This document shows, one piece after another, positions 43,705-60,232 of a DNA stretch of 64,000 nt. The translations under genes and the position numbers were made by a program. Below the pieces are notes generated by a model, which saw only the letters and a program-made list of their open reading frames with translations, was not told where the DNA came from and did no database searches. This DNA is from an uncultured Nitrospira sp. Lineage in GTDB: Bacteria > Nitrospirota > Nitrospiria > Nitrospirales > Nitrospiraceae. The number at the start of each line of letters is the position of its first letter. Position 1 is the stretch's first letter. The stretch is taken from positions 272,453 through 336,452 of the forward strand of contig CABVRX010000002.1 in assembly GCA_902500825.1 (NCBI GenBank), read 5' to 3'.

Positions 43705-44325
43705 ATGTTGCAAGCTGTTTCATTACGTTGCAGTCGCGGTGAACGGCGATTGTTCACCGACCTCAACGTGAAGGTTGAGCGGGGAACAGTATTAGCCGTG
43801 GTGGGTGAAAACGGCAGCGGCAAGACCAGTCTCCTCCGTATCTTTTCCAGTTTATTGCCGCCAGAACAAGGCTCGGTGTTGTGGGAGGAGCAGGATATCC
43901 ATCAACTCAAGGAGCTCTATTCTGGTCAACTGACATATATCGGGCACCTTAATGGGATTAAGGATGACCTTACGCCGCTGGAAAATCTGATGAGCGCGAT
44001 GTCGCTTGCCGGAGAGCCTTGTTCTCACGACGGAGCAAAGGAGGCGTTGGAGGCGATCGGGCTGAAACGGCCCGTTCATCACCTGCCGTCCAAAGTGCTC
44101 TCTCAGGGGCAGAAGCGCCGGGTTGCCTTGGCAAGGCTGTGGCTCTCCACTCATCCCCTATGGCTATTAGACGAGCCGTTTACGTCTCTCGATACGGCTG
44201 CTACGGCGGTGGTGACACAACGGTTGCTGACGCATCTGCAACGCGGGGGGCTGGCGGTCGTCGTGACACATCAGGAAGTCGCGCTTCCTGCCGAGACCGT
44301 GCAACGTCTGAGGTTGACGGGATGA
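43705..44325 (+). CDS. ccmA: Heme exporter ATP-binding subunit CcmA
   Basis: ATPase of the CcmAB(CD) complex that releases holo-CcmE for cytochrome c assembly. It has 206 residues. The Walker A motif GENGSGKTSLLR is near residue 34, the ABC signature LSQGQKRRVALARL near 132 and Walker B WLLDEPFTSLD near 153, with the switch His in VVTHQE near 188. TTGGAGG sits 5 nt before the ATG. It starts an unbroken nine-gene ccm operon in which nearly every junction overlaps. Confidence 0.95.
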   Translation: MLQAVSLRCSRGERRLFTDLNVKVERGTVLAVVGENGSGKTSLLRIFSSLLPPEQGSVLWEEQDIHQLKELYSGQLTYIGHLNGIKDDLTPLENLMSAMSLAGEPCSHDGAKEALEAIGLKRPVHHLPSKVLSQGQKRRVALARLWLSTHPLWLLDEPFTSLDTAATAVVTQRLLTHLQRGGLAVVVTHQEVALPAETVQRLRLTG

Positions 44326-45005
44326 GTGGCTCCAGCATGTGGGAGGCGGTTAGTGGAATCATCCGGCGCGATCTGTTGTTGGCGATGCGGCGCCGTTCGG
44401 ACGCCGCGATGTCGGTCTTCTTTCTCGTGATTGTGGCCAGCCTCTTTCCTTTGGGGGTCGGACCGGAGCCGGCAGTGCTGCGGACTATCGGTCCTGGGGT
44501 GTTGTGGGTGGCGGCCTTGTTGGCCTGCCTGTTGTCGCTCTCACGCGTGTTCACTGCAGATTATCTGGACGGTGTGCTTGAGCAGATGGTCCTGATTCCT
44601 CAACCACTTGCGGTATTGGTAGTCGGAAAGGTCCTCGCCCATTGGCTGATCTCCGGGTTACCGGTCGTGCTGCTTTCGCCGCTGCTCGGGCTCCAATTCG
44701 GTTTAAGCGGAGAATCCCTGGGAGTACTGGTGATGTCGCTCTTGCTTGGGACGCCCACGTTGAGTATGATTGGTGCGATCGGCGCCGCGTTGGTCCTTGG
44801 CGTGCGGGGGAGTGGTCTACTGGTTGCCCTCCTGGTGCTTCCACTCTACGTTCCAATATTGATCTTTGGGGCCGGCGCCGTCACCAGCAGCATGGCTGGA
44901 ATCGGTGGGGAAGCAAATCTGTCGTTGCTTGGGGCCTGTCTGGTGCTGTCTCTTTTTCTGGCGCCCTGGGCTACGGCAGCGGCGTTGCGTATTGCGTTGG
45001 AATAA
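44322..45005 (+). CDS. ccmB: Heme exporter permease CcmB
   Basis: Membrane subunit of the CcmAB transporter. 227 residues with six transmembrane helices. GIIRRDLLLAMRRRSDAAMSVFFLVIVASLFPLGVGPE and LLALPLYVPILIFGAGA-like LVLPLYVPILIFGAGAV are typical of CcmB. The ATG at 44322 overlaps the ccmA stop (ATGA). Confidence 0.93.
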   Translation: MSGSSMWEAVSGIIRRDLLLAMRRRSDAAMSVFFLVIVASLFPLGVGPEPAVLRTIGPGVLWVAALLACLLSLSRVFTADYLDGVLEQMVLIPQPLAVLVVGKVLAHWLISGLPVVLLSPLLGLQFGLSGESLGVLVMSLLLGTPTLSMIGAIGAALVLGVRGSGLLVALLVLPLYVPILIFGAGAVTSSMAGIGGEANLSLLGACLVLSLFLAPWATAAALRIALE

Positions 45006-45015
45006 GAAGCCTTTC

Positions 45016-45771
45016 ATGAGTGTGAACTGGTCGAAGTATTCGGCGCCGCAAACCTTTTATCCTCTGGCGGGACGCCTCATTCCATGGTTCGCCTGCGTAG
45101 CCGTTGTCCTGATGGGGATAGGGCTCTATATGGGGTTCTTTATCGCGCCCACGGACTTTCAGCAAGGCGAGGCATACCGAATTATCTTTGTCCATGTTCC
45201 GGCGGCCTGGATGTCGATGTTTCTCTATGTCGTCATGGCTGTGTGGGCCGGCGTTGGAATGGGGCTCAATGCGCGCCTTTCCTTCATGATGGCGCAAGCG
45301 ATCGCTCCGACCGGGGCGATGTTTACGTTCTTGGCATTATTGACCGGGGCGATGTGGGGAAAGCCTACATGGGGAGCCTGGTGGGTATGGGATGCCAGGC
45401 TGACATCGGAACTCATCTTATTATTCCAGTACGCCGGAGTCATGCTGTTGCGGACCTCCATTGATGACGTGCGTCGTGCGGATCGGGCAAGCGCCGTCTT
45501 CGCCCTCGTTGGGGTGGTCAACGTCCCGATCATCTACTTTTCGGTGCAGTGGTGGAATACCTTGCATCAAGGGGCCTCGGTCAGCATGGCGACCGGCTCG
45601 AAAATGGCATCGACCATGCTCATGGCTATGTTGCTGATGACGGTGGCCTTCTGGTTGTACAGCATCGCCGTCATTCTTGCCCGAGTACGCTGTGTCATGG
45701 TGGAGCGGGAATCCTCGCCGGTGTGGGATGAGAAGCCCACCGCCGTCCAGGAAACGGTAGAGGCTCGCTGA
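45016..45771 (+). CDS. ccmC: Heme-handling protein CcmC
   Basis: It loads heme onto CcmE at the periplasmic face. 251 residues and six transmembrane helices. The tryptophan-rich WWD domain WGKPTWGAWWVWDARLTSELIL is near residues 115-136. Conserved external His residues are in IIFVHVPAAWMSM near 58 and WWNTLHQGAS near 182. The ATG lies 10 nt after ccmB. The C-terminal 35 residues are cytoplasmic and variable. Confidence 0.94.
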   Translation: MSVNWSKYSAPQTFYPLAGRLIPWFACVAVVLMGIGLYMGFFIAPTDFQQGEAYRIIFVHVPAAWMSMFLYVVMAVWAGVGMGLNARLSFMMAQAIAPTGAMFTFLALLTGAMWGKPTWGAWWVWDARLTSELILLFQYAGVMLLRTSIDDVRRADRASAVFALVGVVNVPIIYFSVQWWNTLHQGASVSMATGSKMASTMLMAMLLMTVAFWLYSIAVILARVRCVMVERESSPVWDEKPTAVQETVEAR

Positions 45772-45956
45772 TGCAGTGGGGAAGCGCATCGGAATTTTTT
45801 GCGATGGGAGGGTACGGGCTCTATGTGTGGACTTCGTTTGTGGCCACGGCGTTGTGCATGGTGTGGGAAGTGCTGTCCTTGTGGCGTCGACGGGTTGCGG
45901 TGCGCGCCGAACAGCGCGCCGCGTTGTTAGGAGGTATCGATGAAACCACGGCATAA
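45771..45956 (+). CDS. ccmD: Cytochrome c maturation protein CcmD
   Basis: A small membrane protein needed for release of holo-CcmE from CcmABC. 61 residues with one transmembrane helix (about 15-37). FFAMGGYGLYVWTSF is the CcmD signature, followed by a basic segment (LWRRRVAVRAEQR). The ATG overlaps the ccmC stop as TGATG, and the 3' end overlaps ccmE by 17 nt. Confidence 0.9.
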   Translation: MQWGSASEFFAMGGYGLYVWTSFVATALCMVWEVLSLWRRRVAVRAEQRAALLGGIDETTA

Positions 45957-59286: not shown

Positions 59287-59316
59287 AACTGACATCCTCC
59301 GTCATTTCAGCCGAGT

Positions 59317-59352
59317 GGAGCGGCGAATACGGACTACCAGGCTCGCCGCTCC
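59317..59352 (-). promoter_or_regulatory. Hairpin in the amoC-amoA gap
   Basis: A perfect 10-bp stem, GGAGCGGCGA and TCGCCGCTCC, with a 16-nt loop. It lies inside the 136-nt space between amoC and amoA, 31 nt before the amoA ATG. No U-tract follows on the coding strand. It may protect or process the transcript so that amoC and amoAB accumulate at different levels. Confidence 0.7.
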
Positions 59353-59422
59353 TTCACAGCTAATGTTTCGGCCTATGATTCATGCAATTTACCATCACCG
59401 TTCAGCTCAGAACCAAGTCTTG

Positions 59423-60232
59423 TCAGTACCCGGCCTTGGCGTTAGGATTCACCTGGCTGGGGAACGGATCCAGGATGCTCTTGGGCGCGTTGTTCCAGAT
59501 CACGTCCGCCAGATTCGACATCCGGCTCACGATCTGCGCCGCCACCCCGCCCGCGGCCCCGAACAACCCGCACCAGCCCAACGTCACGAAGCCCCAGTGT
59601 AACGGCGCCGCAAACAGCTCATCCACAAACCAGAACGCATGGCCCCACTCGTTGAGCCCCACGTTCGGCAGAATGAACATCGGCCCCACCACCGCCGCCA
59701 CCAACGGGAACGACGTCGCTTGGCTGTACAGCGGCAACCGCGTCTGCGCATACAGGTAGCTCGCCACGCCGCACGTGATGTACAGCGGGAACGTCCCGTA
59801 GAACGCCACAATGTGGCTCGCCGTGAAGCTCGTGTCCCGGATGATCACTTGGTGCCACGCCGCATCCTGCTCTAACGTGTAGCTGCCCGCGTAGTACACG
59901 CCCCAGATGTAGCACACCAACCACCCCATCCAGTAAAAGTACCGCTTCAGCTCCAGCTTATGGTCCAGGTTCGCCAGGTTCCGGTCCCGCGTCACCCAGA
60001 TCCACCCGATGGTCACGGCAAAGAACACGGCGTTCGCCAAAATGTTAAACCGCCACAGTCCCATCCACACCGAGTCAAACTCCGGGGTCATCGAATCCAA
60101 CCCGTGGGAGTAGCCGAACGCCCGCTGATACAGGACCCAGAAGACCCCGATCCCCAGGATCGCCAACCACCCGAGCTTCACCGGCTTCGAGTCGTACCAC
60201 TGCGAGATGTCATACCCGCGATCACTTGCCAT
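59423..60232 (-). CDS. amoC: Ammonia monooxygenase subunit C
   Basis: A membrane subunit that carries the functionally important copper sites. 269 residues, about six transmembrane helices. Ligands of the CuC site are conserved as Asp123, His127 and His140 (D-x3-H-x12-H), and of the CuD site as Asn194, His198 and His212 (N-x3-H-x13-H), matching the spacing in PmoC. First gene of amoCAB. The ATG at 60232 has AAGGGGGG 7 nt upstream. The coding sequence is visibly rich in C at third positions, suggesting high expression. Confidence 0.97.
   Translation of the reverse strand: MASDRGYDISQWYDSKPVKLGWLAILGIGVFWVLYQRAFGYSHGLDSMTPEFDSVWMGLWRFNILANAVFFAVTIGWIWVTRDRNLANLDHKLELKRYFYWMGWLVCYIWGVYYAGSYTLEQDAAWHQVIIRDTSFTASHIVAFYGTFPLYITCGVASYLYAQTRLPLYSQATSFPLVAAVVGPMFILPNVGLNEWGHAFWFVDELFAAPLHWGFVTLGWCGLFGAAGGVAAQIVSRMSNLADVIWNNAPKSILDPFPSQVNPNAKAGY

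Follow-up and report, generated by a model that had tools for sequence, protein, structure and literature searches.

Does one stretch of a Nitrospira chromosome hold the genes for ammonia oxidation, does the pathway of its owner reach nitrate, and what is the membrane protein encoded in the middle of that stretch? These questions are raised by a window of 64,000 bases (bases 272453-336452 of contig C2) from the draft genome of an uncultured Nitrospira (3.79 Mb, 50 contigs, completeness 99.8%, contamination 0.08%), in which genes for cytochrome c maturation (ccm), hydroxylamine oxidation (hao-cyc) and ammonia monooxygenase (AMO; amo) lie side by side. Here, we report that these genes almost certainly represent the ammonia-oxidation cluster of a clade A complete ammonia-oxidising (comammox) Nitrospira, with nitrite oxidoreductase (NXR) likely finishing the pathway to nitrate. 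The new emphasis falls on OrfM, a little-noticed gene within this known cluster.

The original prediction held that ccmA-I, haoAB-cycAB and amoCAB were contiguous between 43,705 and 60,232. Families were called by reading open reading frames (ORFs) and by Pfam and NCBIfam profile scans against the model cut-offs, and all modules were confirmed in this way; CcmB, CcmE, CcmF, CcmH, AmoA, AmoB, AmoC, HaoB and CycA scored above the cut-off. The features, in window coordinates, are as follows.

43705..44325, + strand: ccmA, haem exporter ATPase (PF00005, 100 bits; named from its position in the ccm run)
44310..45005, + strand: ccmB (PF03379, 237 bits)
45016..45771, + strand: ccmC (PF01578, 125 bits)
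45771..45956, + strand: probable ccmD, 61 codons (ORF in the gap between ccmC and ccmE; place and make-up)
45940..46431, + strand: ccmE (PF03100, 131 bits)
46428..48419, + strand: ccmF (PF16327, 467 bits)
48416..48943, + strand: ccmG, thioredoxin-like (PF08534/PF00578)
48940..49401, + strand: ccmH (PF03918, 177 bits)
49398..50687, + strand: ccmI, CycH-type (PF23892, PF23914)
50760..50788, + strand: sigma-70-like promoter candidate before haoA (TTGACA-17-TATATT, 11/12 match)
50910..52619, + strand: haoA, octahaem hydroxylamine dehydrogenase (PF13447, 458 bits; eight CxxCH; solved HAO chain 6m0p_A, 846 bits)
52655..53647, + strand: haoB (TIGR04392, 357 bits, cut-off 200)
53728..54543, + strand: cycA, cytochrome c554 (NF043010, 423 bits, cut-off 400; four CxxCH)
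54546..55142, + strand: cycB, NapC/NirT-type quinone-side cytochrome, cM552 (PF03264, 149 bits; four CxxCH)
55243..55980, - strand: MOSC/YiiM-domain protein (PF03473, PF03475)
55987..56823, - strand: 278-residue membrane protein, probably OrfM (no Pfam, NCBIfam or PDB-sequence match)
57118..57172, - strand: terminator-like hairpin behind amoB (-34.6 kcal/mol, z -6.9)
57188..58447, - strand: amoB (PF04744, 509 bits; NF041640, 548 bits; solved AMO chain 9leg_B, 581 bits)
58444..59295, - strand: amoA (PF02461, 332 bits; clade A in the tree)
59423..60232, - strand: amoC (PF04896, 352 bits)

The ccmD label is our assumption, taken from its location and a motif and not from a profile model. The promoter candidate before haoA is the top of 10 sites, the chance expectation being 10.1. 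The hao and amo modules are convergent and do not form a single operon, and between them sit the MOSC gene and the 278-residue protein gene, both missing from the gene list of the original prediction.

The owner of the cluster was placed by two trees. In the AmoA tree (73 rows; 72 of the 78 loci supplied were taken, six with matches shorter than 190 residues being dropped), the window lies within clade A (47 rows) with a Shimodaira–Hasegawa-like approximate likelihood ratio test (SH-aLRT) value of 87. Clade A stands next to clade B (11 rows, SH-aLRT 99), the two labels having been assigned from sequence identity and from the record titles 'Rifle_cladeA' and 'Rifle_cladeB'. The 15 proteobacterial copper-monooxygenase rows are separate (SH-aLRT 99); these outgroups are of the methanotroph and Cycloclasticus types only, with no beta-proteobacterial AmoA, and the program warned that long branches come together where the outgroup joins. 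Judged by its sequence, the AmoA of the window is that of comammox clade A, and its closest named counterpart in scan order, at 98% identity, belongs to Nitrospira sp. WA-bin32. One record, L049 (CAADGK010000026.1), is titled 'uncultured Nitrosospira sp. isolate CMX' and has its AmoA inside comammox clade A; it is probably a mislabelled Nitrospira. The HaoA tree that the original prediction had suggested (FastTree, 121 rows) put HaoA with Nitrospira sequences and apart from 13 beta-like rows, so classed by about 65% identity, of which three are named (Nitrosospira, Rhodocyclaceae and Desulfobacillus). A sequence named 'Deltaproteobacteria' (P0213) forms a long branch among the Nitrospira HaoA proteins, as a mislabelling or a transfer.

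The families present suggest a path through the cluster. AmoCAB is predicted to convert ammonia to hydroxylamine, and HaoA to convert hydroxylamine to nitric oxide or nitrite. Electrons from HaoA would pass to CycA (c554), then to CycB (cM552) and on to the quinone pool, as known members of these families suggest. Loading of the 16 c-haems that HaoA, CycA and CycB carry between them would fall to the Ccm system. NXR, represented in this genome only by two contig-end nxrA starts, is likely to complete the path to nitrate. The amo genes are probably transcribed as a unit of their own, which the strong hairpin ends and which converges on the hao unit.

The cluster recurs among relatives. The synteny count covers 32 loci of the same genus, including the present one, many of which terminate at contig breaks; it leaves aside five second amo loci (L144, L146, L148, L153 and L157) and the clade B loci. 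Within it, amoB is present in 27 loci and accompanied by OrfM in 23, the two being at most 1 kb apart in 19. The set of cycB, MOSC, OrfM and amoB occurs together in 11 of the 32, counting the window itself, with OrfM inverted in one (G071). In many clade A loci the MOSC/YiiM-type gene (55243-55980 here) is retained next to OrfM; its best NCBIfam model, 6-hydroxyaminopurine reductase, scores below the cut-off, and a role in detoxifying hydroxylamine-like compounds is a guess.

What, then, is OrfM? The 278-residue protein had no match in Pfam, NCBIfam or the PDB sequences. Two structure predictions, with mean predicted local distance difference test (pLDDT) scores of 69 and 80.9, were made; for neither model did a Foldseek search of the PDB return a match at E 0.001 or better. 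The prediction for OrfM is of a membrane protein with roughly eight helices. A possible likeness to the CruF family of carotenoid hydratases was unsupported in Pfam and was dropped. Passages of a 2015 study name OrfM as a 'membrane-bound protein' of Ca. N. inopinata and of the Ann Arbor bin (PMC4863621). In genome G058 the homologue lies at 89,074-89,874, inside the 69.1-92.7 kb that a figure of that study draws for scaffold 158 (PMC4863621), and by this scaffold position the 278-residue protein is probably the published OrfM.

OrfM was found in 73 of 175 Nitrospiraceae genomes and in two of 22 genera, which are both of the AMO-bearing genera. Across the 175 genomes, amoA and OrfM occur together in 56, amoA alone in five, OrfM alone in 17 and neither in 97 (Fisher p 1.7e-24, kinship not corrected). 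Outside the phylum, three named Methylobacter homologues that were aligned share 67-68% identity with OrfM. Within the order to which Methylobacter KS41 belongs, 237 of 311 genomes carry the protein, counted irrespective of pmoA; the six recognisable OrfM-negative genomes of that order belong to Cycloclasticus or Piscirickettsiaceae. We read 22 of these 237 loci, namely the first two found and 20 selected so as to have long contigs and varied scores. PmoD-like, cupredoxin-like and VTT-domain-like genes lie upstream of OrfM, in the same orientation and no more than five genes away, in 20 of the 22 loci, and a cupredoxin-like gene is present in 21; the cupredoxin and VTT labels come from weak Pfam matches (Cu-oxidase_2 just above the cut-off, VTT below it). 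The PmoD-like family is remotely related to comammox AmoD/E (hhalign 98.6%); it lacks all four published motifs for which it was scanned and has a Cx7HxxH pattern in 20/20. This order of PmoD, cupredoxin and membrane protein genes was not found named in the literature searched, although the supplement of PMC6189053, beyond the passages cited here, may list it. According to parts of another study, 49 gene clusters are comammox-specific, of which 18 are nearest to beta-proteobacterial ammonia oxidisers and three to gamma-proteobacterial methane oxidisers, and copper-homeostasis proteins are mentioned (PMC9714041). OrfM may be among those three.

Distribution and neighbours together point, at a little under even chances, to OrfM as a helper of copper monooxygenases, acting in copper delivery, assembly or electron supply. 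More tentatively still, OrfM could be an accessory subunit or chaperone common to comammox Nitrospira and gamma-proteobacterial methanotrophs, with the PmoD-like protein and the cupredoxin supplying copper or electrons to AMO and to particulate methane monooxygenase (pMMO). Several observations weigh against such a role. Seventeen genomes have OrfM and no amoA match, and in all 10 of those that were read, hao and/or amoB adjoin it. At the 27 amoB loci of the same genus, OrfM is farther than 1 kb in four and outside the stretch read in another four. In clade B, OrfM was not seen in the fetched stretches of five amo loci (L160-L164), and at five further loci (L188-L191, L201) it adjoins hao-cyc in four and ccm genes in one; it is therefore hao, rather than amoB, to which OrfM is tied in this clade. 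Of 15 proteobacterial genomes that have AmoA-like genes (Methylocapsa, Cycloclasticus and others), 13 lack OrfM, which is thus not a universal partner. Distant relatives at 28% occur in Legionella, and the single homologue found in a search of a plasmid collection, also distant, is from Legionella adelaidensis. An alternative is that OrfM serves membranes or lipids and not copper enzymes, its neighbours being shared through lifestyle alone; we regard this as rather unlikely.

Whether the cluster travelled as a piece is a further question, since the original prediction described it as a single, possibly transferable unit and suggested comparing its composition with the flanks. Against a baseline of 32 flank genes (mean 0.654, sd 0.044; 49 genes in all), GC content at third codon positions (GC3) gave a mosaic that is not uniformly foreign. 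A recent arrival as a mobile unit would account for the deviation of amoC, amoA, MOSC, OrfM and haoB from the flank genes, but the deviations run in both directions. GC3 is raised in amoA (z 4.1) and amoC (z 5.3), where codon selection may be the cause, and lowered in haoB, cycA, cycB, MOSC and OrfM (z -2.1 to -5.0; MOSC -5.0, OrfM -3.4, haoB -3.2), while the ccm genes are native-like (|z| up to 1.6) and haoA (z -0.9) and amoB (z -0.5) differ little. The island and its flanks are alike in GC3 level (p 0.11) and different in spread (p 0.009). With deviations both ways and native-like ccm genes, the island is therefore not one block. Nor are there boundary repeats, as the two short repeat pairs found in 42-62 kb do not flank the island. 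The closest scanned neighbours, among the part of the window ORFs that was scanned, are DUF1269, Lcl-type and SDR genes. A transposase ORF at 33648-34703, about 9 kb before the island, has PF05598 over the cut-off and PF01609 just under it, and is the only transposase recognised in that part. The gene order recurs across the genus and OrfM adjoins hao in four of five clade B loci; any transfer is therefore likely to be old. A recent move is thus improbable, and with patchy composition, no boundary repeats and the sole recognised transposase 9 kb off, the idea of one transferable unit is not supported; to judge from base composition and gene order, an old mosaic island fits better than a single recent block.

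For the step from nitrite to nitrate, the support is indirect. With the NxrA of a relative as the query, stubs were found at two contig edges, C26:1-87 and C37:1-87, both covering residues 1-29 (90% and 83% identical). Other results point the other way. Neither the body of nxrA nor NxrB is in the assembled genome. The NxrB probe PF13247 was negative in it, and positive in nine of 14 control genomes, a set without Nitrospira, so that this negative carries little weight. A search with PF00384 returned two proteins only, which we read as NuoG-type without a model. One might thus propose that amo and hao are genuine and NXR truly absent, so that the organism stops at nitrite; a genome 99.8% complete with no full NxrA or NxrB, and with just those two PF00384 proteins, is what this would produce. 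Against it, two contigs start inside nxrA. NxrA-sized PF00384 frames occur in five of six relatives, and NxrA is matched at E 0.001 or better in 156 of the 175 Nitrospiraceae genomes and in 59 of 61 AMO-positive ones, a count that includes the present stubs and some weak matches. Two nxrA copies whose shared body was lost in assembly would explain the stubs. A comparable loss is published for another comammox bin, in which, as passages of the study relate, nxrA lies at scaffold ends and nxrB was unassembled yet mapped by reads (PMC4863621). An organism halting at nitrite is consequently very improbable, and the earlier claim of complete ammonia oxidation stands as regards the clade A AmoA, the placement of HaoA with Nitrospira and the kin with the same cluster, its NXR part being limited to two nxrA stubs. 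That an assembly or binning error fused a foreign ammonia oxidiser to Nitrospira has next to no probability: the genome is a draft of 50 contigs, but the island shares a 364-kb contig with housekeeping genes, contamination is just 0.08%, and the amo-OrfM-cyc-hao cluster is present in the single-contig kin G053 and G116 and the two-contig G117.

The genome was searched for further copies, as had been proposed with the first annotation; counting those of the window, it holds a single amoA, a single haoA and three amoC, with lone amoC copies on contigs C29 and C43. The copy on C43 of this genome (G000), at 8028-8801, is less than 500 bases from the contig end at 9284, and no amoA piece of at least a quarter of its length was detected behind it. 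Contig C49 carries amoE, two amoD, copC and copD in the order amoE-D-D-copCD, names that we assign provisionally from motifs and gene order. AmoE and AmoD1 have the Cx7MxHxnC and Cx8MHxnC motifs, which are among those of PMC6189053. In the five second amo loci of clade A mentioned above (in genomes G109, G108, G116, G117 and G057, in the same order), amoB was not in the stretch read; the order is amoC-amoA-ftsH-AmoD/E-like-amoC in three and amoC-amoA-ftsH in two, FtsH being called by TIGR01241. It is striking to find an FtsH protease gene within an amo locus.

The island bears out, in one further genome, what is known of comammox biology. Its arrangement is already published as typical: portions of the literature describe one cluster that gathers every amo and hao gene together with the genes for type I cytochrome c, exceptions being few (PMC6311188), the same arrangement in Ca. 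N. kreftii and 'most comammox Nitrospira' (PMC8115096), amo loci of varying orientation drawn for seven comammox genomes (PMC12903955), and a restriction of amo and hao to two clusters, clades A and B, that are two genera in GTDB (PMC12342949). The contrast with beta-proteobacterial ammonia oxidisers likewise appeared in 2015-2018, in sections of PMC4863621 and PMC6311188. OrfM matters more than the island: it is an unsettled question how AMO and pMMO receive copper and electrons, OrfM accompanies such enzymes in two phyla, near copper-protein-like genes, and it is testable in tractable methanotrophs. The passages of PMC4863621 that deal with OrfM give it neither a function nor a link to methanotrophs. 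Compared with the PmoD/AmoD copper proteins as treated in parts of PMC6189053, where the Methylococcus pmoD genes are located outside the pmo operons, the methanotroph PmoD-like gene next to OrfM is remotely akin and lacks the four scanned motifs. As in Ca. N. kreftii and the Ann Arbor bin, as far as the cited sections describe them (PMC8115096, PMC6311188, PMC4863621), amoCAB, haoAB-cycAB and type I cytochrome c assembly share one cluster here, and as in the comammox genomes described there, the genome has extra lone amoC, genomic amoE/amoD/copCD and nxrA cut at contig ends. Unlike the cluster as published in those sections, the present one has its amoE-D-D-copCD genes on a separate contig, and its convergent hao and amo modules are separated by MOSC and OrfM alone.

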